In this document: piece after piece, positions 1,775 to 19,426 of the stretch | Position numbering within the stretch: position 1 is the stretch's first letter | How the letters are laid out: each line of letters opens with the position of its first letter | Origin: a bacterium | GTDB lineage: Bacteria; JAHJDO01 | Assembly: GCA_030611945.1 (NCBI GenBank) | Contig: JAUWOV010000031.1 | Location: 1-19,426 of the forward strand | Length of the DNA: 19,426 nucleotides | Direction of reading: 5' to 3' | Position numbers and translations under genes: made by a program | Notes under the pieces: model-generated | What the model was told of the DNA's origin: nothing | Database searches by the model: none | Seen by the model: only the letters and a program-made list of their open reading frames with translations

Positions 1775-1787
1775 AGAAGTAAGTAAA

Positions 1788-3138: not shown

Positions 3139-3238
3139 AGAAGCAATGCACGAATCTCCGCTACCCCCTATCATCAACGCTCACTAAGGCACACAGTAGG
3201 GACCACGCTCTTTTTTACATATATTTTATTTATTCATC

Positions 3239-4180: not shown

Positions 4181-4192
4181 ATGGAAATTCCA

Positions 4193-4603: not shown

Positions 4604-4615
4604 TACACCCTCCTG

Positions 4616-7600
4616 TTATATTTTGTTGAATTCTTCATCCAACCGCTTAAGTTCTTGTGTCAGTTTATTAAATACATTCTCGGCATTTGATAAGTCCCCG
4701 CTTTTGCCAATATTTTCCAGAGCCAGCGCTGTCTCAAAGGCCGGTTTCGCGTCAAAGTTTCCCACTGCGCCCTTAATGGTATGCGCAATGAGCCTTAGCG
4801 CGTCTGCATCTTTCTTATTGATCGCTTGCTGTATTTCTTCTAACTGTTTAGGGTACTCCTGACGATAAATATTAATAACTTCTTTAAGTACTTCCCTGTC
4901 GCCGCCAACCTGTTCTAACGTCTTCTCCAGAGAAAAAACGCTGTTAGCATTCTTACCATTTTCCATGCTTACCCCCCTTCCTTCCACTACCTTAAAAAGC
5001 TCCTCCATCTTTATCGGCTTCGCGATATAATCATCCATTCCCGCCTCTATGCATTTTTCACGATCACCTTTAAGCGCATGCGCTGTCATAGCTATAATAG
5101 GGATATGAGCCCCAGCCGTTTTTTCCTGTTGGCGAATAACGCGAGTTGCCTCATACCCGTCCATCTCAGGCATCTGAATATCCATAAGCACAAGGTCAAA
5201 CAGCTCTCGCGATAAAATATCCAGTGCCTGTTTGCCATTTTCAGCGATAGTCACTAAATGACCTCTCTTCGTTAACATAGTCGATGCCACTTTCTGGTTT
5301 ACCTTGTTATCTTCAGCTAACAAAATACGAAGCTTCTTTATTCCTTCTGCTGTAGGAGTCACGGCTTTTTCTGTCTCATTAGCGGCCGCGAGTTTTTGCT
5401 CAGAGAACCCCAAACCCTTCTTAATCGCTTCAAGCAACTGCGAAGGGACAACCGGCTTCCTTAAAACCTCTTTTATCCCCGCCTCTTCAGCAAGCTTATA
5501 ATCTCCTTCTTTTAATCCGCTGGCAAGCATAATAGTTACAATATCCTTCATCAAGCCTTGCTTGTTCAATTTATCTGCCGCCTGAATTCCACTCATTCCC
5601 GGCATATTCATATCCATCAAAATGAGCGAAAAAGGCTTCTTATCCTCCCCAGCCTTGCTAACAGCAGAAAAGGCATTTTCTCCGGAAATCGCTTCCGCCG
5701 GGATCATACCCCATCTCTCAAGATATCCGCGAAAGATAAACCGGTTTGTAGCGCTGTCATCCACGATTAACGCGCGTAAACCTTGCAGTTTTTCGGGTAA
5801 AATTTCCTTCATTTGACCCCGTGTCTGATCAACGCCAAAACGCGCCGTGAAATTAAACGCCGTACCGGGCCCAGCATCAGGAACAGAAAGCCCGGGCGCG
5901 GGACTCTCTATCCATATTTGGCCACCCATCATTTCCACAAGCTGTTTCGAAATAGAAAGGCCCAATCCTGTGCCGCCATACTTGCGTGACGTTGAAGCAT
6001 CAGCCTGCGTAAAAGGATTAAAAATAAGTTTCTGTTGTTCAGATGACAGCCCAATACCGCTATCACGAACTAAAAACTGTAATACGCATCCGCTATCCGG
6101 CTCAACCTCTTGACGCCCGGCGGTATCAGCAGAATGTTTAAGAAATTGAACCCTTGCCAAAATCTCTCCCTTTTCCGTAAACTTAACCGCATTATTAATA
6201 AAATTGACTAAAATCTGACGCAACCGAAATGGATCCCCTATAAGAGAAGAAGGAATCTCAGGGTCTATTTCCCACACCAATTCCAAGCCTTTGGTTGAAG
6301 CCAAAAAACCAACATTGTCTAAAACCTGTTTAAAAACATCCCGAATATCAAAAGACACATCTTCTAATCTGATTTGCCTTGCTTCGACTTTAGAAAAATC
6401 AAGGATATCATTAAGCAGATTAAGAAGCGACTCACCCGAAGATTTAATCGTTTCAATGTAATCTTTCTGCTCAGAATTCAAATCTGTAGCAAGAGCCAAC
6501 TGGGCCATACCAATAACCGCGTTCATCGGTGTACGGATTTCATGGCTCATATTTGCCAGAAAACTGCTTTTAGCTTTATTAGCAAGTTCCGCTTCTTCCT
6601 GAGCCAGTTTCAATGCTGATTCATCTTCTTTCTGCTTAGTAATATCGTGAATAATTAGCATAAAAATCTGTTGTTTCTCTAACTGCACCTCTCCCATAGA
6701 CACATAAACCGGAAAAATCGTTCCGTCTTTACGCTGGGCAACTACTTCGCCACTACTGCCAATAAGTTCTTGTATACGCGCAGACAACCTACTATCCGAT
6801 ACAGTAGTCTTGCTGCCGTAAGCTTTAGGAATTAAAACCGCAAGATCCTGTCCAATTATCTCGGCTACCTCATAACCAAACATACGCTCAGCGGCCGCGT
6901 TAAAAGACTCAATCTTACGCTGTGCGGCTACCGTAACAATACCATTGGGCGCAGCGTCTAAGATAGCGCGAATACGCGCCTCGCTATCCTTTAACTGATA
7001 AGTTCGTTCCTCAATGAGCATCTCTATACGCGCAGTTCTCCTAATACTGACAAAAAAGTACATTGCCAATATTCCGGTAATAATAAAAATAGCTGTCCAT
7101 ACAACCCACGGATACCAGGTCCTGTGCATAGCAACAAATTCCTGTGTCGTAACACACACAATTTCCCATTGACGGCCGCCAACTTCAATAATTTTTCTAT
7201 ACCTTAAACTTTTTGCGTAATCATCCTTATTTATATCATCCGTCCCTGACACATCTTTCATGGAACGTGAGCGGTGCTGGTAAAGAAAACTTTTATCTTC
7301 CGGGGCATTCTTATCATACAGGTAAATATCAATATATTTTGACTCTAAGGATACCAGCGCACTTTCAACAATATCACCAATTCGAAAAACACCAAGAATA
7401 AATCCATCTAAATTCTTTCGGCGTTCTTCAATTGTATTAAGAGGCACCTCCTTTTTAAAAACCGGTAAGAAAATAAGAAAACTATATTTCTCTCCCTTTT
7501 CTTCCTGCACAAGAATTATTCGTTCAGTAGCAATGCTTCTACCGGTCTGGCGCGCATTATCAAGCGCTGTTAAACGTTCGGAATTAGAAGCCAGATCAAA

Positions 7601-8116
7601 ACCCACAGCAGCCTCGTTACCTCTATACGGCTCTACAAAATAAATAGGGAAATATTCGTCACGTTTCTTGGCAGGCACCAAATATCCCTGGTCTGTTCTC
7701 TCCGTAATCTTAAAATCCTCTAGCCCATCTCTCTTTGCCTCTTCTTCATATTTTTCACGTTCGCTCTTTAAAACTCGGGGAATCCATTCCAAAGCCTGTA
7801 TCTCTTCAACGCGATTTAAAAATGGCGTTACAAAAGTCCTGAATTCTTCCCGTGAAACAAAGTTCGATGCATAATAAAAAGAACGGACTGCCTCCAATGT
7901 AAGCATTCTGTCATTAATAGCTTCCTTTATAGCTGTTGTACGTTCCTCTGCGGCACGATCAGATAAGGCCTTTATTTTGCCGCTCTCCCAAGCCCGGGTC
8001 CCAATTAAACCGAACAAAGATACTATTAGGCCGGCACAGATTACCAGAAATACAGGCACATAACTCTTCCACGACAAGACGTTATCTTTAACGCCGTCTT
8101 TATTTCCCGAATCCAT
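4616..8116 (-). CDS. CHASE-PAS hybrid histidine kinase with two receivers and an HPt
   Basis: A 1166-residue membrane sensor. A transmembrane helix at 19-40 is followed by a periplasmic CHASE domain at about 75-320 (motif ALEWIPRV) and a second helix at about 337-356. Next come a PAS domain (about 378-495), HisKA with His525 (SHEIRTPMN), and HATPase_c (N box NFINNAVKF, DSGIGLS, GGTGLGLS). Two receivers follow, with Asp835 and Asp979, and an HPt with His1112 (AHTIKGAVGN). The architecture matches BarA/ArcB-type phosphorelay kinases. AGAAGGAAAG before ATG supports the start. It sits 14 bp after a stand-alone receiver gene, which may be its partner. No DNA-binding output regulator is in view. 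The gene looks richer in GC than its neighbours and contains GCGGCCGC twice (5382, 6891), which hints at a different origin. Confidence 0.95.
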   Translation of the reverse strand: MDSGNKDGVKDNVLSWKSYVPVFLVICAGLIVSLFGLIGTRAWESGKIKALSDRAAEERTTAIKEAINDRMLTLEAVRSFYYASNFVSREEFRTFVTPFLNRVEEIQALEWIPRVLKSEREKYEEEAKRDGLEDFKITERTDQGYLVPAKKRDEYFPIYFVEPYRGNEAAVGFDLASNSERLTALDNARQTGRSIATERIILVQEEKGEKYSFLIFLPVFKKEVPLNTIEERRKNLDGFILGVFRIGDIVESALVSLESKYIDIYLYDKNAPEDKSFLYQHRSRSMKDVSGTDDINKDDYAKSLRYRKIIEVGGRQWEIVCVTTQEFVAMHRTWYPWVVWTAIFIITGILAMYFFVSIRRTARIEMLIEERTYQLKDSEARIRAILDAAPNGIVTVAAQRKIESFNAAAERMFGYEVAEIIGQDLAVLIPKAYGSKTTVSDSRLSARIQELIGSSGEVVAQRKDGTIFPVYVSMGEVQLEKQQIFMLIIHDITKQKEDESALKLAQEEAELANKAKSSFLANMSHEIRTPMNAVIGMAQLALATDLNSEQKDYIETIKSSGESLLNLLNDILDFSKVEARQIRLEDVSFDIRDVFKQVLDNVGFLASTKGLELVWEIDPEIPSSLIGDPFRLRQILVNFINNAVKFTEKGEILARVQFLKHSADTAGRQEVEPDSGCVLQFLVRDSGIGLSSEQQKLIFNPFTQADASTSRKYGGTGLGLSISKQLVEMMGGQIWIESPAPGLSVPDAGPGTAFNFTARFGVDQTRGQMKEILPEKLQGLRALIVDDSATNRFIFRGYLERWGMIPAEAISGENAFSAVSKAGEDKKPFSLILMDMNMPGMSGIQAADKLNKQGLMKDIVTIMLASGLKEGDYKLAEEAGIKEVLRKPVVPSQLLEAIKKGLGFSEQKLAAANETEKAVTPTAEGIKKLRILLAEDNKVNQKVASTMLTKRGHLVTIAENGKQALDILSRELFDLVLMDIQMPEMDGYEATRVIRQQEKTAGAHIPIIAMTAHALKGDREKCIEAGMDDYIAKPIKMEELFKVVEGRGVSMENGKNANSVFSLEKTLEQVGGDREVLKEVINIYRQEYPKQLEEIQQAINKKDADALRLIAHTIKGAVGNFDAKPAFETALALENIGKSGDLSNAENVFNKLTQELKRLDEEFNKI

Positions 8117-8130
8117 AACTTTCCTTCTTT

Positions 8131-8505
8131 TTAACCTATAAAATCTTCAATCTTCACCAAAAGCAGTTTTAAATCAAACGGTTTTATAAAATAGGCATCT
8201 GCCCCTGCCACAACCGCTTTTTCTCTTTCATCCTGCTGGTCCAGCGACGACAAAATAATTATCGGTATCTTCTTATATTTATCATCAAACTTTAACATCC
8301 GGCATACCTCATAACCGGTCATTTTCGGCAGCATCAAATCCAGCATCACCAGATCAGGATGTTCGCTTCTTGCCTTCCTGAGTCCCTCTTCTCCGTCTTG
8401 TGCGGTAATAACCTCGTACCCGTTTATCTCCAGCCTTGCTGAAAGTACTCGCTGAGTAACTAAGTCATCCTCTACCACGAGTATCTTTTTAGTCTCGCTC
8501 ATCAA
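8131..8505 (-). CDS. Stand-alone CheY-like response regulator
   Basis: A 124-residue receiver domain with no output domain. The acidic pocket is Glu12, Asp13 and Asp14; the phosphoacceptor is Asp56 in LVMLDLMLP; and the conserved lysine is in FIKPFD near residue 108. GGGAGG lies 6 nt before the first of two adjacent ATG codons. It lies between the small helical proteins and the hybrid kinase (14 bp apart), so it probably takes phosphate from that kinase's HPt or relays it onward. Its output must be by protein-protein contact; candidates nearby are the synthase or the small helical proteins, but nothing in the sequence picks one. Confidence 0.92.
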   Translation of the reverse strand: MMSETKKILVVEDDLVTQRVLSARLEINGYEVITAQDGEEGLRKARSEHPDLVMLDLMLPKMTGYEVCRMLKFDDKYKKIPIIILSSLDQQDEREKAVVAGADAYFIKPFDLKLLLVKIEDFIG

Positions 8506-8525
8506 AAACCTCCCTTTTTAAGCTT

Positions 8526-8717
8526 TTAAAGAAACTTTTCTTTGTATTTTTTAAGAACCCTGAAAGCCTCCAGATTCTCTGACATAATCGGATATAATTT
8601 ACTGCGAATTGAGGAATCAGAAATTTCATTAAGCAGGTCAGTATAAACTGTCAGAGCTTTTTTAGAGATATTTTCTAACTCGTTGAAATAATTTTTGTAG
8701 TCCTCATTAGTAAACAT
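8526..8717 (-). CDS. Small all-helical protein
   Basis: A 63-residue, charged, all-helical protein predicted to form a two-helix hairpin (about residues 5-30 and 34-62). An excellent AAGGAGG lies 7 nt before the ATG, and the gene overlaps the end of the preceding gene by 11 bp. The pattern of the first helix (a Leu-Glu-rich segment followed by a Thr-Asp-Leu-Leu run) faintly resembles half of a ferritin-like bundle, but no metal-ligand ExxH motif is present. It may form a bundle with the adjacent 79-residue protein. Function unknown. Confidence 0.65.
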   Translation of the reverse strand: MFTNEDYKNYFNELENISKKALTVYTDLLNEISDSSIRSKLYPIMSENLEAFRVLKKYKEKFL

Positions 8718-8946
8718 CTCTTTGCCTCCTTACAATTTCATCGTTAACCCTACTTAGAATCTCTATATGTTTTGTCTTTGCGATTACCAATTTTTGAAAA
8801 TATTCCACAATATTCTCCCTGTCATCCTTTTTTAAGTTACTAAAAAACATTGCCGCTGAAAGATGTTTATTCAACAAAGGAACAAGGCTCTGCTCTAATC
8901 TTATCAGCTCCTCTATTTGCTTCAACAATTTATCTTTCTTTATCAT
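8707..8946 (-). CDS. Small all-helical protein, ferritin-like-half resemblance
   Basis: A 79-residue helical protein. GAAGGAGG precedes the ATG, which overlaps the stop codon of the synthase gene as ATGA, so translation is coupled to the synthase. The layout of helix 1 with Glu18 and His28, a turn at the Leu-Lys-Lys-Asp-Asp segment, and helix 2 ending near His60 recalls one half of a ferritin-like four-helix bundle. The glutamate of the usual ExxH is missing, so di-iron binding is doubtful. Together with the overlapping 63-residue gene it may make a two-component bundle. A small accessory subunit of the synthase is the contextual guess. Confidence 0.65.
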   Translation of the reverse strand: MIKKDKLLKQIEELIRLEQSLVPLLNKHLSAAMFFSNLKKDDRENIVEYFQKLVIAKTKHIEILSRVNDEIVRRQRDVY

Positions 8947-10766
8947 TTACGCATCCTCCTTCTTAATTTCTCTCTATCTTCCTCCAACGCCGTAACCAGA
9001 CCTATGCTTGTCTCAAACCCTTTGCGGGTTTTCTTCTCGGATGACCAGATCACCTTTCCATCAAATACAGCAGTCTCGTTATCTGCTAAATTGAGTTTGC
9101 ATATAATCAAAGTTCCGGGCTTAAGATGCTCCGGCAAGAATACAGAAAAACAGTCTTTCAAGGTCTGTTTACTTAAATCCTCTGTCGCAGTAACAGCTCC
9201 TATAATTTTATATTCAAATTTTACATCTCTCTGCAGTCTTTTACAATTTATTTTTGAGGTATCTTCCTGATTAAAATAAAATATACTGGATAAAACCCCA
9301 AAGTGGTAAAAAGCCCAGAATCCATTAACCAATAAAGCCGGTTCCCGTTCATAGACAAACCTGTTAGCCCCCCAGACAACCGCGATAAAATTCACGAAGA
9401 GCATAGTCAACTGCGGCCAGAGCTTTGAATACGGCAGGGCCCTGCCTTTGATCTTCTCAGTAATTCCAAACGTTACCTTTATTCCCAGTAAAGCCGATAC
9501 TGCACCACGAATATATATGGAAAAGGCGATGATGCCCAACAATTGTCCGAGAAATAAATCTTTAAATTTGTAATTGCGTGTACTCAGTACCATATAGAAG
9601 ACACTCATAGAAAGCACTATGTAAGGAATGAAGGCCAGAAAATAAATTTCCGGACTGGCGAAGAAAGAAGGGATTCCAAAGAAAAGATAAACAACAGGGC
9701 ATATCATAAGAGCGAAAAAGGCAATGCCAATCAAATAATAAGAACTGGATAATAGATACTCCCACCATTGCTGAGACGTTAAGGAAAATGGCCTTGTTAA
9801 GAATCTAAAGAGAAGCTTTTTGAAAACCGCTATGGTACCTGTAGCCCAACGAAATTGCTGTTTAAAATATCCGAGCAGGTTTTCAGGCCCCATACCAAAT
9901 ACAGAGACATGGTTATAGTATAGTGATTTCCAGCCTTTAGAGTGTAACTTAACAGATGTTGCAAAATCTTCAGTAACAGTTGACTCATCCAAACCACCTA
10001 TCTCTACAAGCGCATCCCTACGGAATACAATGTTTGTGCCACAGCAAAACATCGCATTCTGGCTGCTTTTGCCCTCGCAGATGTATTCATAGAAAACAGC
10101 CTGTTGAAATGCTGAACCACGCGCAACCAGTGTTTCTTTTATGTTGGTATAGAATTGCGGGGTCTGAATAAAAGCCAGCTTTTTGTCCTTTTCCATAATC
10201 GGTATCAAAACATTCAGAAATTCAGGTAAAGGATTTTGGTCTGCGTCAAAAATGGTAATGTATTTTTGATTTAGGCCTTTTAGACAATCATTGACAATAC
10301 CAGCCTTAGCCCCATGACGTTCTTTTCGCCTGAATAAATTCAAATGGTAATCCTGCGCCAGCTCATCGGCCTCTCGCATATATTTCTCATCTGAACTATC
10401 GTCTAAAAAATAGACAGATTTATTACGGTAGTTCAGGCTGTTAAGCGAACGAAATGTGTTTTCTAAAATTTCTTTTGGCTCATGTCTGGCAGCAACCATA
10501 ACCGCCACTGAAGGCTCCTCTTGAAGTCCTTGCTGTTGTGATAATGTCTTCGGCTGTGCGGATACCCTGAAAATGGTCAAGACATAGCCGAGGGTATGAA
10601 CAAGAATAAAAAACTCTCCAAACATAAGCACGAAAGAGAAAGTTTTTTCTAAAGGTGTATAATCGGCAAATAGAAAAAGGGTTAGCCGAACAATAATATA
10701 ACTTAAAATCGCTATTCCCGCGCATAAAACCAGCACGTTTAAAAAATCTCTTTTGTTTAGTTTCAT
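8943..10766 (-). CDS. Membrane GT2 polysaccharide synthase with PilZ-like C-terminus
   Basis: A 607-residue cellulose-synthase-like processive glycosyltransferase. Two N-terminal transmembrane helices (about 10-33 and 42-67) precede a GT2 domain with Asp122-Asp123, the DAD motif at 174-176, TED at 265-267 and QQFRW at 303-307. Several helices follow (about 340-500), with an amphipathic GITEKIKG segment at 434-441 like that before the last helices of BcsA. Residues 507-607 look like a PilZ domain by its end (GKVIW, then IGLV), but the c-di-GMP motifs are degraded: Lys-Arg-Leu-Gln-Arg in place of RxxxR, and DLSKQT in place of DxSxxG. The polymer is unknown; GH26 nearby suggests a beta-mannan or mixed glucan. 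It is 15 bp downstream of the TPR/barrel exporter. The start has a weak AGAG site. Confidence 0.9.
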   Translation of the reverse strand: MKLNKRDFLNVLVLCAGIAILSYIIVRLTLFLFADYTPLEKTFSFVLMFGEFFILVHTLGYVLTIFRVSAQPKTLSQQQGLQEEPSVAVMVAARHEPKEILENTFRSLNSLNYRNKSVYFLDDSSDEKYMREADELAQDYHLNLFRRKERHGAKAGIVNDCLKGLNQKYITIFDADQNPLPEFLNVLIPIMEKDKKLAFIQTPQFYTNIKETLVARGSAFQQAVFYEYICEGKSSQNAMFCCGTNIVFRRDALVEIGGLDESTVTEDFATSVKLHSKGWKSLYYNHVSVFGMGPENLLGYFKQQFRWATGTIAVFKKLLFRFLTRPFSLTSQQWWEYLLSSSYYLIGIAFFALMICPVVYLFFGIPSFFASPEIYFLAFIPYIVLSMSVFYMVLSTRNYKFKDLFLGQLLGIIAFSIYIRGAVSALLGIKVTFGITEKIKGRALPYSKLWPQLTMLFVNFIAVVWGANRFVYEREPALLVNGFWAFYHFGVLSSIFYFNQEDTSKINCKRLQRDVKFEYKIIGAVTATEDLSKQTLKDCFSVFLPEHLKPGTLIICKLNLADNETAVFDGKVIWSSEKKTRKGFETSIGLVTALEEDREKLRRRMRK

Positions 10767-10781
10767 CTCTTTAAATCCGTG

Positions 10782-12812
10782 TTAGAAATAATATTTTATT
10801 GACGCAATCAGGCGGCTATCTTTGTAAATATCACAGCTTGTATTCGTTATTGATCCTTGTACGTTGAAATTTAATCTTTTGTTTACATCCCAGTTAAGTC
10901 CTGCGCTAAATTTATGGCCGACTATATCCCCTGAATCCACAGAAACATCATAACCCAAATCATAATATAGATCATCCGCTCCAAAGAATATCTCCTCTTT
11001 ATTTAAGAAATGCCTCCAATTAAGACTAACTTTATTCGTCCAGAAACTATGCGGTGAGAAATACTCAGGCATTTTTTCATCAAAAACCCTGTAGAAATAT
11101 CTATATTTTACGCTAAACCTTCTGGGTTCAAGAGAAATATAATAAAGAAGATCTACCCCAGGTTCATCTCTATAATTCCCATCTGAATAATTTGAAAATA
11201 GATAATCCAAGCCTAATTTAAGCCTTCTATCTATATCTATCTCCAATCGCTCTTTATAATTATCGCTGTAATAATCACCCCTTATAACTGTGCTTGAATT
11301 CTCAAGACGCTCCCTCTCAAAAGAGAAATGCGATACACCTATATCAAAAACCCTGAAATTAAAATCTCCTCCAAATGTATGCATGGTATCTATATCTTTA
11401 TTATACTCAATAAAATCATAGAATGCGCTTACTCGCCAGTCAGGAGACTGCAAATAACTAATTCCTATCATCCCTTCATTCTCCACCACATCACTAAAAT
11501 CTGAAAAGCTTCTATTGGTAACTTTATATTCCGCATCTATCTGAAAATTATAGTCTAGGGGATATCTCAGCTTATTGAAAAAACTACGCCTCTTGATGTC
11601 ATTTACCCTGTCTTGACCATCTGCTTCAAAAAATTCATAACCTGATTGTGAAAAAAGATGCGTTGATATAAGCTGTGCTTTTTGGAGTCCTTCTTTTGCC
11701 CTGAAATGAGCGGGTGATATAGTGAGTATTCTTTTATATTCTTTGATAGCCTTTTCCCACATGGACTGGTAAGAATAAATTTGGCTTAAATCGAACATGG
11801 CTTCGACATTTTGCGAGTCTTTTTCTATAAGCTCCTTATAGTAATTTATCGCATGCTTTACCCTGTTATCCCAATATGCCTTTTTTGCACGCATCTCCAG
11901 CGCAATTTGTTCATCATGTGCAATTTCCAGTATTTTCCTGTACTCTTTTATTGACTCTTCATACTTTCTGGCCCAACCCAAAATACGCGCCTTCTGTAAC
12001 CTTATCTCTGAAGACTCTTTATCCTTAAGAATTTCATCGTATAATTCTAATGCCTCGTCGTATTTCTTATTCCAGCCTAATATATCGGCAAGCGCAGTCC
12101 TTGCTTTTATATTCTTGGGGTCGTTTTTTAAGACTTCTCTATACTCTGCTGCAGCGCTTTCATAGTCCCCGTCTGCTATATAGGCCTCGGCTAATAATGC
12201 CCTTATTTCTCCTTCATTGCTATTCTCCTCCTTTAAAAATTCCTTATAGATTTTAATAGCCTGTTCTGCCTGCCCGGAATACTGCATTGCCCTGGCAAGT
12301 AATAACTTTACCTTTTTATCTTCAGGGGTTATTTTTAAGATCCCGATTAGAATCTCTTTCGCTTCTTCAAATTGATTGTTCCAGATATAAACTTCTGCCA
12401 ATTGCTTCTTGACATCAATGTTGTCTGTCGCTGTAACAACTTCTTTGTAAAGCTGGATGGCTTTATCATATTCTTTCTGCCAACTCAAACTCTGAGCCAA
12501 TGATTCTTTTATTTTATTATCGTGCGGCTGAAGAGAAAGGATTTTTTGAAAGGTAATTATCGCCTTTTCGTAGACTTTAGTCCACTGATAGGAATACGCT
12601 AAATCTCTAAGCACATCGATCCGCGAAGATTTTATTGCAAGCGCCTTTTCATAGAATTCTGTTGCCTGGGCGAATTCACCCTTTTCAAATAATCTATGGC
12701 CTTGATAATAATTTATATCCGCTTGTTGAGTATTTTGATAAATCAGTGTTGTAACAGCAGAAATAACTATCAACACAAAGATAAAACAAATGATTTTTAT
12801 ATAGACTTTCAT
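10782..12812 (-). CDS. TPR-beta-barrel outer-membrane polysaccharide exporter
   Basis: A 676-residue envelope protein. The hydrophobic stretch at 5-25 is a signal peptide or anchor. About ten TPR repeats fill residues 33-385; they are regular 34-residue units with conserved Trp-x-x-x-Tyr-x-x-Ala patterns. Residues 388-676 are beta-rich with alternating aromatic residues and end in Tyr-Tyr-Phe, the usual outer-membrane barrel C-terminus. PgaA, BcsC and NfrA share this TPR-then-barrel plan for exporting polysaccharide. It stands directly upstream of the GT2 synthase, so it likely carries that product across the outer membrane. No Shine-Dalgarno is visible before ATG 12812, and a TATAAT lies 8 nt upstream, so translation may be leaderless. 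It is shorter than PgaA or BcsC. I am fairly sure of the class but not of the polymer. Confidence 0.85.
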   Translation of the reverse strand: MKVYIKIICFIFVLIVISAVTTLIYQNTQQADINYYQGHRLFEKGEFAQATEFYEKALAIKSSRIDVLRDLAYSYQWTKVYEKAIITFQKILSLQPHDNKIKESLAQSLSWQKEYDKAIQLYKEVVTATDNIDVKKQLAEVYIWNNQFEEAKEILIGILKITPEDKKVKLLLARAMQYSGQAEQAIKIYKEFLKEENSNEGEIRALLAEAYIADGDYESAAAEYREVLKNDPKNIKARTALADILGWNKKYDEALELYDEILKDKESSEIRLQKARILGWARKYEESIKEYRKILEIAHDEQIALEMRAKKAYWDNRVKHAINYYKELIEKDSQNVEAMFDLSQIYSYQSMWEKAIKEYKRILTISPAHFRAKEGLQKAQLISTHLFSQSGYEFFEADGQDRVNDIKRRSFFNKLRYPLDYNFQIDAEYKVTNRSFSDFSDVVENEGMIGISYLQSPDWRVSAFYDFIEYNKDIDTMHTFGGDFNFRVFDIGVSHFSFERERLENSSTVIRGDYYSDNYKERLEIDIDRRLKLGLDYLFSNYSDGNYRDEPGVDLLYYISLEPRRFSVKYRYFYRVFDEKMPEYFSPHSFWTNKVSLNWRHFLNKEEIFFGADDLYYDLGYDVSVDSGDIVGHKFSAGLNWDVNKRLNFNVQGSITNTSCDIYKDSRLIASIKYYF

Positions 12813-12819
12813 AGCTGGT

Positions 12820-12825
12820 ATTATA
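12820..12825 (-). promoter_or_regulatory. Possible -10 box before the exporter gene
   Basis: TATAAT on the minus strand lies 8 nt before ATG 12812, with TTTCCT 17 nt further upstream as a poor -35. If used, the transcript would start almost at the ATG, giving a leaderless mRNA. This would fit the absence of a Shine-Dalgarno. Weak evidence. Confidence 0.3.
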
Positions 12826-12836
12826 GCAGGAAATCC

Positions 12837-13418
12837 TCACCTAGGAAACAGGGAGGTATAAACTATGGCGGGGACCTCCACTGCAACCGCCTGCTTTAGC
12901 TGGCGGTTTATCCTTTTCCTGTCATTGCGAATCCCGAAAGCCTTCGGAATGGGGTAGTAGGGGCTCAATATTTTGAGCCCAATCCCCTTTTCTTTTGAGA
13001 TTTTTATGTAGGGGACAGACATGTCTGTCCTATTTGCTTTGTTAGGATTTACAATGTCATTCATTAACCAAACTTTAATACCAAGAGAATTAGCCAGTTT
13101 TTTAGCATAATTAAATTTTTCTTTTGTATCTTTTTCTCCATCTATAAAAAGCGCAAGACCTGGTTTTTTACCAGTTTCATAAGCGTAATGAAGAGCTTGT
13201 CCTATCCCTTCATGAAACTTATAAACATGGTCAACCTCTATGGCATATTCGTCAGTAAGAATGTCTACTCTGCCAAAAGTAACAGAAACCTCTAACTTGC
13301 CATGCGCATAAGCATCATTCCAAGCCGCTTGCCACTCTTTTTCAGAGGCAGCAAAGAGAGAAACAGAAAAGACGAAAAGCAAGAAAGCAAAAAAAAGTAA
13401 ACGCTTTTTAATTAACAT
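12837..13418 (-). CDS. Secreted protein with a nuclease-fold-like core; C-terminus repeat-derived
   Basis: A 193-residue protein with a signal peptide (residues 1-24, cleavage probably after Phe-Ala-Ala). The core at 48-92 contains GRVDILTDEYAIEVD, then FHEGIGQALHYA and TGKKPGLALFI. This resembles a recurring uncharacterised family with a restriction-endonuclease-like pattern (Asp52, then Glu61-x-Asp63). Catalysis is unproven, and the second residue is Asp rather than Lys. From about residue 130 to the end the reading frame passes through palindromic repeats (12852-13030), so roughly 64 C-terminal residues are probably acquired and not part of the fold. The start lies 1 bp after the methyltransferase stop codon, with no clear Shine-Dalgarno, so translation is probably coupled. 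I know of no firm function; extracellular DNA processing is only a guess. Confidence 0.7.
   Translation of the reverse strand: MLIKKRLLFFAFLLFVFSVSLFAASEKEWQAAWNDAYAHGKLEVSVTFGRVDILTDEYAIEVDHVYKFHEGIGQALHYAYETGKKPGLALFIDGEKDTKEKFNYAKKLANSLGIKVWLMNDIVNPNKANRTDMSVPYIKISKEKGIGLKILSPYYPIPKAFGIRNDRKRINRQLKQAVAVEVPAIVYTSLFPR
12852..12908. repeat. Two adjacent inverted repeats
   Basis: GGAGGT (12852-12857) pairs with ACCTCC (12874-12879), and AACCGCC (12885-12891) pairs with GGCGGTT (12902-12908). They lie within the 3' end of the secreted-protein frame. On RNA they would form consecutive hairpins just before the exporter gene. Confidence 0.6.
12920..12954. repeat. REP-like element (TGTCATTGCGAATCCCGAA type)
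   Basis: The sequence TGTCATTGCGAATCCCGAA and its continuation to GGAATGGGG match the widespread class of short dispersed repeats that begin GTCATTGCGA and contain a CCGAA/TTCGG hairpin. Here the element is inside the reading frame of the secreted protein. Confidence 0.55.
12961..12980. repeat. Palindrome, member of a GGGC-NCAA repeat family
   Basis: GGGCTCAATATTTTGAGCCC has 8-bp arms (GGGCTCAA and TTGAGCCC) around a 4-base centre and is preceded by GTAG. Read on the minus strand it matches the element at 16369-16388 except for one compensatory base-pair change, so both belong to one family. Confidence 0.7.
13013..13030. repeat. Perfect 18-bp palindrome
   Basis: GGACAGACATGTCTGTCC is a perfect palindrome preceded by GTAGG (13008-13012). 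Its boundary with CCCCTAC on the minus strand resembles the neighbouring palindromes, so it may be another member of the same repeat group. Confidence 0.7.
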
Positions 13419-13419
13419 C

Positions 13420-14886
13420 TCAAAGAAAAGTTGTCTGCTTATTATTTTTTTTATTATCTCTTACAGCAGTTTTAAATGTGCCTTTTGTTGAAGTTGGAAT
13501 GTTTATCATTTTATCCTCCAGCAGATCTTCAACCGTTATAATCTGAATTTTGTCGTAATTACTCCCAAAAAACTTTTCTAAATAATATCCCTGCTTTTTT
13601 GCAGTCTGTCTCATACCTGAGGTTATCTGTTCTTTAAAACAAACAAAAACTCCCACTCCTGCATTTTTTTCTTTAACTGTTGTGATGAAATGATTAACTT
13701 GAGGTAGATTTACATTCCCGCTTTTAACTTCTATTAAAACTGTTTCTTTTGTGCCTTGAATATCAAAAGTTAAATATCCATCAAACCCTATTTGAGTTCT
13801 TTGTTGATTTAGAACACCGTGAAGCATTACTTCTATTATCCATTCCTCAAATTTTAATCTCCCGCCCTTTGTACCTGTTGCCAGCTCTTTTGCTGATGCT
13901 ATATCTTTGGGAAATCCAAACACTTCAAATGTATTTTTGACTTGTCGGCCATAAGTGTCTATTAATCTTTTTGTAATTAATCTTGTTGCTAGATGCGAGA
14001 TATCAACTCCTATCCAATTTCGATTTAAGCTTTCTGCTACAGCTATTGTGGTCCCACAACCACAACAAAAATCTGCAACTAAATCGCCTTTGTTTGAGCT
14101 TGCCCTGATTATTCTCGACAGTAATGCTCTTGGTTTCTCTGTTGGAAACAATTGCTTTACTGGAGGAACTCTACTTATGTCCCAAACATCATCTCGAGGA
14201 ACTCCCAATGATTCTCTGTCTTCTACTTGTGAGGGCAATCTATTACCATTTTTATCATAGCTAGAGATAATCTTGGATTTCCCAAACCTTTTGAGAGTAG
14301 AGCTTGTTCTCTCCATTAAATCAATTTTGTTAAAGACTCGACCGGTATTTTCTTCTTTTGAATAAAAAAGAAGAATGTCATGATTTCTTTGAAATTGCCT
14401 GTTTCCTGAAGGCCATTTTCTATAATGCCAGATAATTTCATTTCTAAAATTCTTTTTCCCAAAAATCAAATCACAAACTAATTTTAGATAATGGCTCATT
14501 GTAGGATCACAATGCAGATAAAAGCTTCCGGTATCTTTTAAAACTTTGTGCATATACCATATTCTAATTGCCATTATGGAGAGATAAGAAATAACCCCTT
14601 TTGAAAGTCGTATTTGATCAAGCGCATTTAGAAAATTGTATAAATCTAAATCAAACTCTTTTATTTCGTTTAGAGTATCTAAATACGATACATTACTCCA
14701 AGTATCAGCAAATGCCTCTTTTTGTGCTTTTGTATCGCTTAAATCAATGCTTTCAAAAAGGACGTTATAGTTTCTTTTTGAATTGAATGGGGGATCAATA
14801 TATATTAAGTCTACTAATCCGCTTGGGTATTTTTCGTGCAGTTCTTTCAGAACGTCTAAATTATCACCAAAATATAATTTGTTCAT
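13420..14886 (-). CDS. DNA methyltransferase fused to a PD-(D/E)XK-like domain
   Basis: A 488-residue protein from ATG 14886, which has GGAG upstream; a longer frame from 14928 is unlikely. Motif IV, DPPF (31-34, followed by Asn-Ser), comes before motif I, DFCCGCGTT (272-280). This is the beta-class order of N6-adenine or N4-cytosine methyltransferases. The region between, about 150-260, is the likely target-recognition part. After residue 340 comes a separate domain with Asp369 and Glu386-Val-Lys388, the spacing of a PD-(D/E)XK endonuclease core (IEVKSG), resembling Mrr-like cores. The protein may both modify and cut DNA, or use the C-terminal domain for binding. Its promoter and structured leader lie upstream. 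The next gene starts 1 bp after its stop. A role in defence against foreign DNA is inferred. Confidence 0.85.
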   Translation of the reverse strand: MNKLYFGDNLDVLKELHEKYPSGLVDLIYIDPPFNSKRNYNVLFESIDLSDTKAQKEAFADTWSNVSYLDTLNEIKEFDLDLYNFLNALDQIRLSKGVISYLSIMAIRIWYMHKVLKDTGSFYLHCDPTMSHYLKLVCDLIFGKKNFRNEIIWHYRKWPSGNRQFQRNHDILLFYSKEENTGRVFNKIDLMERTSSTLKRFGKSKIISSYDKNGNRLPSQVEDRESLGVPRDDVWDISRVPPVKQLFPTEKPRALLSRIIRASSNKGDLVADFCCGCGTTIAVAESLNRNWIGVDISHLATRLITKRLIDTYGRQVKNTFEVFGFPKDIASAKELATGTKGGRLKFEEWIIEVMLHGVLNQQRTQIGFDGYLTFDIQGTKETVLIEVKSGNVNLPQVNHFITTVKEKNAGVGVFVCFKEQITSGMRQTAKKQGYYLEKFFGSNYDKIQIITVEDLLEDKMINIPTSTKGTFKTAVRDNKKNNKQTTFL

Positions 14887-15040
14887 AGGGCTCCATGCAA
14901 GCCCCAATAAAAAAAGGGGCGCAAACATCTATATCGGCCACTGACAAGTAAATCCGATAAAGACTGCCACCCCTCGCCATCCCGAAGGACAGCGATATGA
15001 CAGCTTTACCCCACTTGTCAGTGAGAAGCCGAAGCTTCTT
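14887..15040 (-). promoter_or_regulatory. Structured leader of the methyltransferase gene
   Basis: On the minus-strand RNA a hairpin AGAAGC-UUCG-GCUUCU (15039-15024) precedes an 11-bp stem, CACTGACAAGT (15023-15013) with ACTTGTCAGTG (14949-14939). Inside it are TAAAG/CTTTA plus CTG/CAG (15008-15001 with 14966-14958) and a 9-bp stem with a UUCG loop (14995-14974). Downstream, GGGGTG (14973-14968) can pair with CGCCCC (14921-14916), followed by T7. GCCCC (14920-14916) can pair with GGGGC (14905-14901). GGGCT (14904-14900) can pair with AGCCC (14892-14888), which covers part of the Shine-Dalgarno. These pairings are mutually exclusive, as in a switch. No known class recognised. Confidence 0.45.
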
Positions 15041-15093
15041 TAAGGTAAAAACTGAAAAACAATTAATTTTTAAAGAACAATGTTGCTAATGTG
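15041..15093. other. Untranslated start of the methyltransferase leader
   Basis: An AT-rich stretch between the promoter and the first UUCG hairpin. I see no gene and no further clear structure. Transcription from the promoter at 15094-15123 would start near 15087. Confidence 0.4.
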
Positions 15094-15123
15094 ATAATAA
15101 CACTTCGCAACTTACTTTGTCAA
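15094..15123 (-). promoter_or_regulatory. Sigma70-like promoter for the methyltransferase operon
   Basis: Minus-strand TTGACA (15123-15118), a perfect -35, is followed after 17-18 nt by TTATTA/TATTAT (15100-15094). It would give a leader of about 200 nt before ATG 14886, covering the structured region. Confidence 0.65.
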
Positions 15124-15204
15124 AAAATTTTCTGGGACTTTGTCTTGCTTTTGCAGGCGAATGTAGGAACTATGAGTTGAAAAGAGTCTAATGCCTATTT
15201 GGCG

Positions 15205-15225
15205 TCGCCTCAAAGGCTTGATTTG
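15205..15225. repeat. Hairpin downstream of the small membrane gene
   Basis: CCTCAAA and TTTGAGG form a 7-bp stem separated by a 7-base loop, just past the stop codon of the gene at 15233-15586. No T-run follows, so a rho-independent terminator is not supported. It may be an mRNA 3' end structure. Confidence 0.4.
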
Positions 15226-15232
15226 AGGGTCT

Positions 15233-15586
15233 TCAATTCCTGAAGATTCCCACAATCATGCAGATTGCACTCAGAATGATCAGGAGGAATCCGAGGAGAT
15301 CACAAGCAAGGCCAAATAGATCTGGCTTACGCTCATTTGTTTCCATGAGAGCAGTTCCGCCAGTGTACACATTGGGAGGTTTGATCCAGCTTACAGTCTT
15401 GTGATTCTTCCATTCACCAATTCCGATCAAGAAAACCCCGAGAGAGAGCAATTGGAGCTGGCCATTGGTCATCCCCCCTTTGATCTCGACAAAGAGAGAG
15501 ACAAGGAAAGCCACACCACCGAGGTATACGAAAACTTTATACCATGTGTCGAGCTTCAGATTCTTGAATGTGTCAGAAGGTGACAT
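15233..15586 (-). CDS. Three-helix membrane protein, unknown function
   Basis: A 117-residue protein with three predicted membrane helices: about residues 16-35, 44-58 and 90-114, with a polar loop between the second and third. AGGA lies before the ATG within AGGACAGGAATAAA. I do not recognise a family. The gene is on the same strand as the membrane-anchored gene at 15656-16252, and the attC-like palindrome at 15599-15672 sits exactly between them. Base use looks more GC-rich than in the flanking genes. Isolated membrane genes of this type are frequent integron-cassette cargo; a second possibility is a small defence-associated membrane protein. No function is claimed. Confidence 0.65.
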   Translation of the reverse strand: MSPSDTFKNLKLDTWYKVFVYLGGVAFLVSLFVEIKGGMTNGQLQLLSLGVFLIGIGEWKNHKTVSWIKPPNVYTGGTALMETNERKPDLFGLACDLLGFLLIILSAICMIVGIFRN

Positions 15587-15598
15587 TTTATTCCTGTC

Positions 15599-15672
15599 CT
15601 CGAACGACCAAGCTTACTGGCAACAATTGAGCACAGCGGATTTGCCAGTCCAACTTCAACCGCTGGTTCGGC
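15599..15672 (-). other. attC-like imperfect palindrome
   Basis: On the minus strand GCCGAAC (15672-15666) and GTTCGAG (15605-15599) bound a 74-bp imperfect palindrome with an inner perfect 8-bp arm pair (ACTGGCAA 15616-15623, TTGCCAGT 15642-15649) and an 18-nt loop. This resembles the R''-L''-L'-R' layout of integron attC sites, whose ends are RYYYAAC and GTTRRRY. The match to those ends is imperfect (C at the first R of GTTRRRY). The preceding gene ends inside the element, as cassettes do. No integrase is in view. Confidence 0.35.
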
Positions 15673-16252
15673 AAAATAATTTACGTCCCTTTGTCAGTTG
15701 CTCCATGCGATTTCTTTTCAAACGCCACTTTTCCTCAACCCTTTTGATCATTTTTGGGCGCATAAAAGATACAGAACCTATGTGCTCTCGTGTTGAAAGA
15801 GCCGTTCTGAAGTTTTGACCCTTAGCTCGTTTTAGCCTGGCCATATCTATTTGAAATTCAGAAAATATTTCTACATCATCAGGATCAATAAGGTGCCAGT
15901 TCTTTTCAAGTAAGTTTATAATTTTTGCATTGTTTTGCATAACCTCTGTGTCGATATAAGAATTTGCTTCTTCTAACATTGCAATAGCTTCTTTCTCGAA
16001 AGCCTTCATAGATCCACGAGCTACGTTTTTAACTTTAAACTCTTTATCAAAGGCTTTATGATAGTCTTTATAGAGTTCAAATAAGGCCTTGTTCAAACAT
16101 GTAAAGTAATATAATGTCCCATACAGACCACCAAGCTGGTTTTGTATAATTTGTAATTCTCCTTGACGCATGCTATGCCATATTTGAAAAAGGGCAGTGA
16201 CAACTGCTGCGCCAACACTACTCCCAAGAAGTGCTATAAGAAATGTCATCAT
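15656..16252 (-). CDS. Membrane-anchored helical protein, unknown
   Basis: A 198-residue protein with one N-terminal membrane helix (about residues 3-24, Gly- and Ala-rich) and a long, charged, mostly helical cytosolic part (about 30-140), followed by a basic tail. There is no recognisable catalytic motif. The pattern (single anchor, then helical bundle) occurs in many uncharacterised accessory and defence genes. Two ATG codons are adjacent at the start. The stop codon falls inside the attC-like palindrome, with a same-strand membrane gene following 69 bp later, so the pair may be cassette cargo. Function unknown. Confidence 0.65.
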   Translation of the reverse strand: MMTFLIALLGSSVGAAVVTALFQIWHSMRQGELQIIQNQLGGLYGTLYYFTCLNKALFELYKDYHKAFDKEFKVKNVARGSMKAFEKEAIAMLEEANSYIDTEVMQNNAKIINLLEKNWHLIDPDDVEIFSEFQIDMARLKRAKGQNFRTALSTREHIGSVSFMRPKMIKRVEEKWRLKRNRMEQLTKGRKLFCRTSG

Positions 16253-16361
16253 AACTACCTTTTATTATGTCGACAAACATTAATCATCAAACACCCACTT
16301 TTACTTTGATACCACCCTACCTCAAATTACCCAAAATCTCAATAAATTTAATTAATGACAT

Positions 16362-16388
16362 AAAAAAAGGGCACAAAATATTGTGCCC
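16362..16388 (-). terminator. Rho-independent terminator, repeat-derived
   Basis: Minus-strand GGGCACAA-TATT-TTGTGCCC (16388-16369) forms an 8-bp stem, immediately followed by seven T residues (16368-16362). It is placed to end transcription of the DUF5661-like gene. The stem belongs to the palindromic family also seen at 12961-12980. Confidence 0.75.
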
Positions 16389-16460
16389 CTACAATTACAT
16401 CCCCCTGAATCCCCCTTCAAAGTGGGAATCTCTACGTCAGCCAATTTAATTTTGGATTGG

Positions 16461-16505
16461 AGAATGACAAAGAGATTGCTTCGTTACTTCACTCCTAAGA
16501 ATGAG
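16461..16505. repeat. REP-like element (GAGATTGCTTCGT type)
   Basis: GAATGAC, then GAGATTGCTTCGTTACTTCA, then CTCCTAAGAATGAG resembles the widely dispersed repeat that runs GTCATTGCGAG to GAAGCAATCTC. It appears to be the same broad class as the element at 12920-12954. Confidence 0.5.
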
Positions 16506-16542
16506 CGGGCAAAACTCCTCTGCAGGTTTAACATCCCAATCC

Positions 16543-16815
16543 TCAGGACTTTTCCCAAAATTTATCAGCCTCATTTTCCATCTTTTCTAATCTTGTATAA
16601 TAATCGGGAAATTCCTCTAAGTGCGCAAGCGCAATCTTCCCTGTCGTTAAAGGGTCATCATCAGTAACATTTGTTGCCAGACTAACTAAACCATGCTCTA
16701 ACTCCACATCCATCCCAATACGAAACTGCTCCACGTCAAATTTATCCCATTTTATCCCCAGCTGCTCTCCAATTTTCTTTGCCTCATCAAAACTAAAACT
16801 TCTTTTACTGCTCAT
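16543..16815 (-). CDS. DUF5661-like small protein
   Basis: A 90-residue soluble protein. The central motif FDVEQFRIGMDVELEHG followed by TNVTDDDPLTTGKIALAHL and EFPDYYTRLEKME is typical of the DUF5661 family, whose function is unknown and which is also found in phages. A strong AAGGAGG lies just before the ATG. The gene begins 20 bp after the left copy of the direct repeat, whose translation reproduces the end of the J-domain protein. The AbiE module thus appears to split an original J-domain/DUF5661 pair. A link to the chaperone is suggested by this position only. Confidence 0.8.
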   Translation of the reverse strand: MSSKRSFSFDEAKKIGEQLGIKWDKFDVEQFRIGMDVELEHGLVSLATNVTDDDPLTTGKIALAHLEEFPDYYTRLEKMENEADKFWEKS

Positions 16816-16826
16816 AAAAACCTCCT

Positions 16827-16880
16827 TGTTCTTGTTTATGAATAACGTACAGAAACTATTAGATCTCCCTTATGGTCACA
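16827..16880. repeat. Left 54-bp direct repeat flanking the AbiE module
   Basis: It matches 18491-18544 at 52 of 54 positions. On the minus strand it encodes an in-frame C-terminus, [14 protein letters not shown] with TAA at 16838-16836. This is the J-domain protein's ending with two substitutions, so it is probably the original, displaced 3' end of that gene. Confidence 0.9.
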
Positions 16881-16888
16881 TGAATGTT

Positions 16889-17761
16889 TCATTTTCGTAA
16901 TTCTAACCAATATTCTTGTAAAAATGAAAAAGCTTCCGCCATTGTCTTTTTCATAACGCCACAATCTTCTGCCATTTGAGCGTAGCTATTTTCCATTATC
17001 TTAGGAGGAATTTCTAACTCTTGAGGTATATCATGGGTGTTGCGCCGTTTAAACGTTGCCTCTATTGCTGATATTACCAATCCTTTATCAGGAAGACCCT
17101 GTTCAATAAGCAAAACTAGATCAACCAAATCCCTTATGCGTGAAAAAGGTCGTTTTTTACGAGGATATGAATACGCGTGTATCTTTTCAGCGAAATGCTG
17201 TTCAACAGGCAACATAGCAACACATGTCGGTTCTATTCCTGCAAACCCTAAAATATCATCACCCTTTTTCCATTCGGCCTCAGAAATTACCGCGTCACCT
17301 ATGCCAACATCAATATGAAATCTTGTAAAAATTCGATTAGCAACTCTCGCCTCAACAGGATAGCGCCATCCACCATATACTGCCTGATCAAACTCTCTCA
17401 TAGGAACACCAATATAAAACTGGAACCAATCTGACATATCTTTCTTTGCTTCTGCCTGAAGCAACTCGCGAATAGTATTTTCATCCAGGTCATTCATACG
17501 AGGTATTGAAAAGTCAATATCTTTAGTCGTCCGTGCAATGCTATGAAACCGAAATTCCAAAGCATAACCACCTTTTAACAACCATTGTTGATTTGGTCTA
17601 TTTGGTTCAAATAATCGTGCGAGGAAACGATCAAATGTAACCCGTCTTCGCAAGCGATCTAAAGGGATCGATTGTTCACGTGTAATATTTCTAAGTCTAT
17701 CCTCAAGAGCCCGCCTGAATGCGATCGCGTTTTTATACTTTTTGAAATCAGCTGTCATCAT
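16889..17761 (-). CDS. abiEii: AbiEii-type nucleotidyltransferase toxin
   Basis: A 290-residue protein of the AbiEii/AbiGii (DUF1814) family, the toxin of type IV toxin-antitoxin systems. The nucleotidyltransferase signature is present: LLKGGYALEFRF (Gly64-Gly65), then RTTKDIDFS with Asp81 and Asp83, then HIDVGIGD with a third acidic residue. The C-terminal PVEQHFAEKIHAY and RDLVDLVLL motifs are also typical. Family members transfer nucleotides to tRNA or other substrates and stop growth, often during phage infection. The start overlaps the antitoxin gene by 14 bp, so translation is coupled. The stop lies 8 bp before the left direct repeat. Confidence 0.93.
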   Translation of the reverse strand: MMTADFKKYKNAIAFRRALEDRLRNITREQSIPLDRLRRRVTFDRFLARLFEPNRPNQQWLLKGGYALEFRFHSIARTTKDIDFSIPRMNDLDENTIRELLQAEAKKDMSDWFQFYIGVPMREFDQAVYGGWRYPVEARVANRIFTRFHIDVGIGDAVISEAEWKKGDDILGFAGIEPTCVAMLPVEQHFAEKIHAYSYPRKKRPFSRIRDLVDLVLLIEQGLPDKGLVISAIEATFKRRNTHDIPQELEIPPKIMENSYAQMAEDCGVMKKTMAEAFSFLQEYWLELRK

Positions 17762-18368
17762 GCTTTCCCTGTCGACTTTTCATCTTTTTCAAAATCGTTA
17801 TTATTTTTTTTCTTGCCTTCTCCGACATTTCAGCGCTTACAATATCAATAATCTGAATCATCCCTTTGTCGTAAGCCTCTTGAATAGCCTGTCCAAGATA
17901 ATCCATGCTCAGATTAGCTTCGGCAGAATCAAGAATTGTTCGAAGAGGATTCGTAACAAAAAAACCTTCTCTTTGCTCCTTCTCGTCAATCGACACTCTC
18001 CCCTTGTGGATGACACATCCTTTAGGTGTTTTTTTTCTAAATCCAGGAGGAATTGTAAGATGAATTTTTGATGGCATAACATCACTGAGGTTCTGAATGC
18101 AAAGTGCTGACTCGTGTGAAATAATAGCTTGCGGCTCACTATTGCGATCTCTACTCCATAGAGACCACCTAACATAATCCTCATCAGGTGAATTTGGGAA
18201 TTGCGCAAGTCGAAAAATGCCCCGATCAATCTCAAGCCAATCTCCGCTTTGCTTGTAATGGGTATGCATACGATAGGAAAATCCCGCGCCAACTGCCTGT
18301 TTTGCAGTAAAATAGCCCTGCTGAAAAGAAGCAACTTCAAATAGTTTCTGTTTTTTTGTGTTTTTCAT
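17748..18368 (-). CDS. abiEi: AbiEi-type antitoxin/transcriptional repressor
   Basis: A 206-residue protein of the AbiEi antitoxin family. Residues 1-60 contain the winged-helix DNA-binding part (FTAKQAVGAGFSYRM, then DWLEIDRGIFRLA), followed by a C-terminal domain with ISHESAL and TNPLRTILD that is characteristic of the family. AbiEi antitoxins neutralise AbiEii and repress their own promoter by binding paired repeats. Two TTACATTATATGTAA sites flank the predicted promoter upstream and are the likely operators. AGGG precedes the ATG. It is the first gene of the two-gene operon, antitoxin before toxin as usual. Confidence 0.93.
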   Translation of the reverse strand: MKNTKKQKLFEVASFQQGYFTAKQAVGAGFSYRMHTHYKQSGDWLEIDRGIFRLAQFPNSPDEDYVRWSLWSRDRNSEPQAIISHESALCIQNLSDVMPSKIHLTIPPGFRKKTPKGCVIHKGRVSIDEKEQREGFFVTNPLRTILDSAEANLSMDYLGQAIQEAYDKGMIQIIDIVSAEMSEKARKKIITILKKMKSRQGKHDDS

Positions 18369-18380
18369 AGTACATAACCC

Positions 18381-18449
18381 TTACATTATATGTAATATAT
18401 ATACTCCCTCAAGAGGTTTTGTCAAGCATTTTTATTACATTATATGTAA
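18381..18449 (-). promoter_or_regulatory. AbiE promoter with two operators
   Basis: The minus-strand promoter has a perfect TTGACA (18425-18420) and TATATA (18403-18398) with a 16-nt spacer. Identical TTACATTATATGTAA copies lie at 18381-18395 (near the transcription start) and 18435-18449 (upstream of -35), with arms TTACAT/ATGTAA and a centre-to-centre distance of 54 bp. This fits cooperative AbiEi repression, which is inferred from the family. Confidence 0.8.
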
Positions 18450-18490
18450 TGTTTGTGCGCCAGAATACGAAAAACAGCCAATAACCGTTG

Positions 18491-18544
18491 TGTTCTTGTT
18501 TATAAATAACGTATAGAAACTATTAGATCTCCCTTATGGTCACA
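18491..18544. repeat. Right 54-bp direct repeat at the J-domain gene 3' end
   Basis: It matches 16827-16880 at 52 of 54 positions. It covers the last 14 codons and the stop of the J-domain gene plus 9 bp beyond. Together with the left copy it bounds a 1,664-bp unit holding only abiEi, abiEii and their promoter. Confidence 0.9.
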
Positions 18545-19183
18545 GGTAGGGCACATTCTACCGATGCCTTTCAATCTTAATTTCTGGCCATTTTTTGTGC
18601 CGGGATTTATTTTTAGTGTAATTGTTCTTGCATCGCTTAATTTAACTTTAACCTGACCTCCGTTCACAGCAAGATTTTGGGGAATCTTTATCTCTGCGTA
18701 TGTATCTGTATCATGTTTTTGTTGACCCCCTGTATTCGCGAATTGATAAGTCGTATAGGCGCCGCCTTGATCGCCTTGTCCTGAATTTACCCCTTCAAAA
18801 ATATCAGATAAATCATCAAAAGAGAAATATCTGTTAAATCCTCTTTGCTGTTGGGTCTCACGTGGTCTAGAGGCATGAAAATGCTTCATTAAATCTTCGA
18901 AATCAAACCCTGTTTGTGAAGCAAAATCTCCGGAGCCATGCCCGCTTCTAAATACATAAGCGCCTTTTTTATAATCATCGTATTCCTTGCGTCTTTTTGC
19001 GTCGCCTAAAGCGTAATATGCGGCTGCAATCTCTTTGAATTTCTCCTCGCATTCTTTTTTCTTTTCCTCCGGACATGTATCAGGATGATATTTAACAGCC
19101 AGTTTGCGGTATGCTGCCTTAACCTCTTCCTTGGAGGCATTCTCATTCACGCCTAAAATATTATAATAATCCTGAGCTTCCAT
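18500..19183 (-). CDS. J-domain co-chaperone (DnaJ/CbpA-like)
   Basis: A 227-residue protein. Residues 1-70 are a J domain with DYYNILGV at the start and the catalytic HPD at Tyr-His-Pro-Asp. A Gly/Gln-rich linker (about 75-155) follows, then one C-terminal substrate-binding subdomain (about 157-227) with [20 protein letters not shown] and GLKGIGRM-like features, ending in [17 protein letters not shown]. It stimulates an Hsp70 (DnaK) in the cytosol. It lacks the full zinc-finger region and second C-terminal subdomain of classical DnaJ, giving a CbpA-like or shorter form; this may be natural. The last 14 codons are within the direct repeat left by AbiE insertion. The dnaK partner is not in view. 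Confidence 0.88.
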
Positions 19184-19216
19184 GCTTATTCCTAATTTCT
19201 AGTTCATATTATATCA

Positions 19217-19225
19217 ATTATACCA
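19217..19225 (-). promoter_or_regulatory. Extended -10 promoter of the J-domain gene
   Basis: Minus-strand TGGTATAAT (19225-19217) fits the TGnTATAAT extended -10, about 34 nt before ATG 19183. No good -35 is obvious. A second TATAAT-like box lies just downstream. Confidence 0.5.
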
Positions 19226-19332
19226 AATTATAAATAAAACAACATCTTTCAGATACGTCGAAGTGGAAATGACTTGATAAAAAAGACCCCAAAAACCTAG
19301 ATAGAAGCCTAAAAAAAGGTAGAAAGAAGCAG

Positions 19333-19378
19333 GCTCTGCTGGTATAATAGCAAAAACAGAGCATCACCCAATGGGTGA
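19333..19378 (+). promoter_or_regulatory. Extended -10 promoter inside a dyad, with a leader hairpin
   Basis: TGGTATAAT (TATAAT at 19343-19348) lies between GCTCTG (19333-19338) and CAGAGC (19357-19362), inverted repeats that could be an operator. TCACCC-AAT-GGGTGA (19364-19378, six pairs plus a closing pair) forms a hairpin in the leader. It would serve the gene starting at 19394. Confidence 0.5.
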
Positions 19379-19393
19379 AAAACGGAGATAAAG

Positions 19394-19426
19394 ATGCTAT
19401 TAACAAAAAAGATGTCACAAGTCAGA
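19394..19426 (+). CDS. Start of a gene cut by the right edge
   Basis: CGGAGA lies 7 nt before ATG 19394. Eleven codons (MLLTKKMSQVR) are visible before the window ends. The promoter features upstream and the divergent J-domain gene support a real gene. The identity cannot be determined. Confidence 0.55.
   Translation, partial: MLLTKKMSQVR

Follow-up and report, generated by a model that had tools for sequence, protein, structure and literature searches.

An AbiE toxin-antitoxin operon inserted at the 3' end of a J-domain gene between two copies of a 54-bp target duplication

How did a lone toxin-antitoxin operon come to lie between a J-domain gene and its downstream partner, with a copy of the J-domain gene end on either side? 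The question is raised by the window analyzed here, a stretch of 19,426 nucleotides that makes up contig JAUWOV010000031.1 (positions 1 to 19,426) of assembly GCA_030611945.1, the genome of an uncultured bacterium referred to below as G000. On the minus strand of the window, the J-domain gene is followed by abiEi, abiEii, and a gene encoding a DUF5661 protein (Table 1). The initial annotation, made from the letters of the window, had described two 54-bp copies with 52/54 identical positions around abiEi, abiEii, and their promoter, and had proposed that they mark a site-specific integration into the gene 3' end. A repeat search recovered both copies, and their ungapped score of 48, compared to a maximum of 11 among shuffled flanks, shows that the repeat is not due to chance. 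As first described, the right copy is the 3' end of the J-domain gene, comprising its last 45 bp (stop codon included) and a further 9 bp, and the left copy encodes the same gene end, its TAA lying 20 bp ahead of the DUF5661 start codon with a ribosome-binding-like AGGAGG in between. The size of 1,664 bp given for the unit corresponds to the repeat-to-repeat period, and the insert proper measures 1,610 bp. It contains solely the AbiE operon and a putative double operator, with an unremarkable G+C content of 39%.

Table 1. Positions of the repeat copies, the insert, and the genes at the AbiE locus within the window
Feature	Position	Strand	Basis
DUF5661 gene, downstream partner of the J-domain gene	16543..16815	-	Pfam DUF5661 1e-24
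Left 54-bp copy, duplicated J-domain gene 3' end adjoining DUF5661	16827..16880	-	Repeat search, alignment with empty sites
Insert proper, missing from G001 and G003	16881..18490	-	Repeat bounds, empty-site comparison
abiEii, nucleotidyltransferase toxin (predicted)	16889..17761	-	Pfam AbiEii E 3.5e-30, PADLOC E 1.5e-84
abiEi, antitoxin and transcriptional regulator (predicted)	17748..18368	-	Pfam AbiEi_4, PADLOC AbiEi E 1e-60
Second palindromic box, 54 bp from the first	18381..18407	-	Repeat family D2
First palindromic box upstream of abiEi, putative AbiEi operator, TTACATTATATGTAA	18435..18461	-	Repeat family D2
Right 54-bp copy	18491..18544	-	Repeat search
J-domain gene, target, 3' end whole after insertion	18500..19183	-	Pfam DnaJ 6e-24, DnaJ_C (partial) 1e-9

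The operon in the insert is predicted to encode an AbiE type IV toxin-antitoxin system, its abiEi and abiEii genes being adjacent and both scoring over the Pfam cut-off. As in the AbiE systems described by Dy et al. (2014; PMC3985639), a winged helix-turn-helix antitoxin-regulator and a DUF1814 nucleotidyltransferase toxin with intact motifs form a two-gene operon that is preceded by two palindromic boxes, and that is found both on mobile DNA and in diverse contexts. The two genes overlap by 14 bp. AbiEii motifs I to IV were assigned against those in the same study (PMC3985639), and GG 64-65, R77, D81/D83, the K193 region, and RDLVD 210-214 are invariant across six relatives. AbiEi is known to bind two inverted repeats within the abiE promoter (PMC3985639); because this autoregulation is known, the palindromic boxes, the first of which is also present in relatives, are regarded as a putative AbiEi operator. 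The proteins themselves are no different from those of known AbiE systems, whereas the unusual aspect is the location of the operon, with the same host gene end on either side.

To compare the locus within the genus, we used five genomes, namely G000 and the congeners G001 to G004. The J-domain/DUF5661 junction without abiE, which the initial annotation had suggested looking for in relatives, is present in G003 (C28) and G001 (C5), where the J-domain gene, 20 bp, and the DUF5661 gene follow each other with a single 54-bp copy and no AbiE. At the nucleotide level, the J-domain gene of the window is 93% identical to that of G003 and 91% to that of G001, and the DUF5661 gene is 93% identical to that of G001 and 90% to that of G003. 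The J-domain gene was not found in G004 or in G002, the latter being only 62% complete. The uninterrupted site in G001 and G003 demonstrates that the locus in the window is an insertion that duplicated 54 bp of its target with no loss of sequence, leaving both neighboring genes intact, and the two sister species bear out the proposal that AbiE was inserted at the J-domain gene 3' end. Two empty sites set against one filled site provide a before-and-after case for a lone toxin-antitoxin pair within a duplicated gene end. Relative to both empty sites, each copy shows a single base difference, the right copy having TTA for TCA in the last codon and the left copy GTA for ATA. The idea that the 54 bp form a specially conserved functional site was rejected, as the genes concerned contain longer stretches of identity at other positions.

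The AbiE unit was also found outside this locus. G002 harbors the same unit (94% identity over window positions 16879-18481) at a different locus (L026:3469-5333, C25), ~200 bp from the 3' end of a tRNA-Leu(CAG) gene beyond which all congeners diverge, and its abiEii is frameshifted through a short deletion. The stretch between that unit and the tRNA gene reads like a replication-gene fragment. Relatives with 74-83% nucleotide identity, confined to 1.57 kb, occur in unrelated contexts in two Omnitrophota and in Elusimicrobia- and Actinomycetota-labelled records, and four further, more distant relatives belong to Omnitrophota. This presence in unrelated contexts and in several phyla shows that the unit has spread horizontally. 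The locus had no megablast match among plasmids, no AbiEii was found in viral contigs, and the AbiEii proteins encoded on plasmids are distant relatives with 30-38% identity.

J-domain gene sequence flanks none of the other AbiE units. A search for abiE units bounded by similar repeats, also suggested at the outset, found no direct repeats above those of shuffled sequences around nine other units, with the exception of the Elusimicrobia-labelled locus L027, where an above-chance flanking repeat of 18 nt is ambiguous, lying within a dispersed, partly simple repeat. Since the other units are without J-domain gene flanks or such repeats (L027 being ambiguous), the 54-bp repeat is target sequence and not part of the AbiE unit. 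The unit in L027 splits a dispersed intergenic repeat, ~26-38 bp of which lie on both sides (4209-4246 and 5874-5911) at a spacing of 1665 bp, compared to 1664 bp in the window, and an integron cassette was considered for this locus owing to its repeat family. L027 may represent a second long target duplication or may reflect chance arising from simple sequence; five genomes related to the Elusimicrobia-labelled one contained no second case.

For the origin of the insert, the reading we favor, at about an even chance, is that a recombinase made it, either acting in trans or decaying in place to leave a minimal remnant resembling a CIME, which is a decayed element that has kept its att sites and lost its integrase (PMC5704250). 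An acquired AbiE operon would have entered the J-domain/DUF5661 junction by one crossover, in the style of a tyrosine recombinase, between the 3' end of the J-domain gene and a 54-bp match to it on the incoming DNA. The incoming DNA would have supplied the new 3' end and stop codon of the J-domain gene, and the old end would have been displaced to adjoin DUF5661. The presumed recombinase would have been provided in trans, or would have been lost through later deletion together with the rest of a presumed element, leaving an attL-AbiE-attR remnant that would be retained since AbiE, as a presumed addiction module, would select against its own loss.

The att repeats of tyrosine recombinases are 8-60 bp long and are found at the 3' ends of housekeeping genes (PMC5704250). 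The 54 bp fall inside this range, and the duplicated gene 3' end includes a regenerated stop codon. In addition, the two base differences sit as a single crossover between differing sites predicts, 3' of the crossover in the J-domain gene copy and 5' of it in the left copy; this side pattern, expected in an estimated ~1 in 4 cases under random mutation, is mild support for a crossover. The proposal of site-specific integration is partly supported, the product being consistent with it in its repeat length, its regenerated stop codon, and the sides of its base differences. The insert abuts the repeats directly, and the little space left for a lost element counts against the recombinase, as does the lack of such repeats around other copies of the unit, L027 being ambiguous. 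As noted from the start, no integrase lies in the 1,610-bp insert, which holds abiEi and abiEii only and contains no integrase relic. The 54 bp showed no clear inverted core sites or recognizable att architecture, viral contigs contained no exact repeat core, and no other element was seen at the J-domain gene 3' end, congeners included. When the 54-bp sequence was sought as an attB elsewhere in the genome, as had been suggested, no third copy was obtained, the next-best match being 15 bp. The presence of tyrosine recombinases in the genome, where the initial annotation had suggested seeking a helper integrase, counts in favor of a recombinase, but none of the genome's recombinases could be tied to the J-domain gene site. 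There are six tyrosine recombinase matches, all on contigs other than that of the window, and one large serine recombinase; the 342-aa tyrosine recombinase on C84 adjoins an ORF for a LexA-like repressor within a phage-like region, and two others resemble a conserved Xer pair common to the congeners.

Comparable insertions in the genus involve miaB. In G001 (L020:9300-11510), a partial miaB 5' end is followed by an AbiEi/AbiEii pair, a serine-recombinase-like fragment, and a rebuilt miaB with a replaced N-terminus, and on C88 of G000 (L018:4690-6840), miaB breaks off at almost the same codons, ahead of a further AbiE-like pair. For genes outside the window, names were assigned by reading translations, not by profile search. 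Codons ~10-12 of miaB resemble an integration hotspot for toxin-antitoxin cargo, and the insertions look like decayed elements bearing such cargo; they were counted in favor of the action of a recombinase in the window. A 33-bp stretch in the G001 miaB insertion (C5:48427-48459; L020 ~9440-9475) is 91% identical to the AbiE operator of the window and precedes an AbiE pair other than that of the window.

Both of its components being known, the locus is a new example of AbiE and of insertions at gene 3' ends that lack an integrase. It resembles a CIME (PMC5704250) in that foreign cargo lies within direct repeats, one of which is the target gene end, no integrase is present, and relatives have an empty site; in contrast to a CIME, the insert is only 1.6 kb long and holds one operon, and the site has no known parent element or integrase. 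Since neither descent from an integrase-bearing element nor att sites in common with one were found in the genome, in viral contigs, or at the J-domain gene end of congeners, we describe the insert as CIME-like and do not classify it as a CIME. With IMEs and SGI1-like islands, which use a tyrosine recombinase (PMC5704250, PMC8409611), it shares insertion at a gene end, repeats in the range of 8-60 bp, and a target left whole. Unlike them, it has no int or xis, its target is a J-domain gene, and no second element was seen at its site; with abiEi and abiEii as its only genes, it is not an autonomous tyrosine-recombinase element. If made by a recombinase, the insert would be almost as small as a remnant of an integrative element can be, and would show that addiction genes can outlive the element that brought them. 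As with transposons and IS elements, it is bracketed by duplicated target DNA, but the 54-bp duplication is far above their usual length and no transposase is present. A DDE transposon or IS was rejected on account of this length and of unconvincing terminal inverted repeats; an imperfect inverted match of 13 bp lies near, not at, the insert ends (shuffle p 0.008) and was treated as chance.

The same product could have arisen by illegitimate insertion, the main alternative, possible but less than even, in which a break with ends staggered by 54 nt took up an AbiE fragment, and fill-in produced the 54-bp duplication. Such an event needs neither site specificity nor a recombinase, selection having kept only the case that spared the genes. 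It would explain the missing integrase, the missing second site, and the lack of repeats at other units, and is consistent with the flush junction on the abiEii side of the insert, where there is a possible 2-bp TG microhomology; the L027 unit may likewise lie within a repeat that it split, the duplicated stretch there being a different one. However, a 54-nt stagger is long, the insert ends lie near the limits of the functional operon, and the two copy differences are placed as a crossover predicts, although this last evidence is mild. It is quite improbable, in our estimate, that the AbiE operon is itself mobile, as a recombinase-less cassette of 1.6 kb moved by a recombinase in trans with target duplications of ~30-55 bp and holding the toxin-antitoxin pair alone; such a unit would be a minimal mobile cassette of a new type. 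An assembly artefact or a mixture of strains in the metagenome bin could be suspected in a draft of 119 contigs bounded by IS ends, but is very improbable in view of the two bases at which the copies differ, the position of both junctions inside the contig, and the 90-93% similarity of both flanks to the congeners.

An origin by rearrangement or homologous recombination is unlikely, though it draws on the displaced position of the target genes. In G001 and G003, rlmB and corA precede the J-domain/DUF5661 block and miaB follows it, and the block in the window is outside this context. Its homology to the congeners ends 12-14 bp above the start of the J-domain gene and at or just before the end of DUF5661. 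A second DUF5661 paralogue (91% nucleotide identity; G000:C88:3410-3682) is found in the rlmB context without a J-domain gene, giving the window genome two DUF5661 genes compared to a single one in congeners. Both contig ends (47-205 and 19282-19426) are ends of an IS-like repeat that recurs at dozens of contig ends of the genome, which is fragmented largely because of it. The block could have been moved or duplicated, and the repeat could be what remained after recombination between two variants of the locus, AbiE already being next to the J-domain gene in one of them. Opposed to this are the restriction of the J-domain gene duplication to 54 bp, with AbiE flush on one side, and the failure to find a genome with a J-AbiE junction but no second copy. 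The displacement of the block may be unrelated to AbiE, yet it keeps room for a rearrangement origin of the repeat. Elsewhere in the window, positions 13420-14928 encode a fusion of an N6/N4 DNA methyltransferase with a restriction-endonuclease-like domain (Pfam NA-iREase1), ~1.6 kb from DUF5661.
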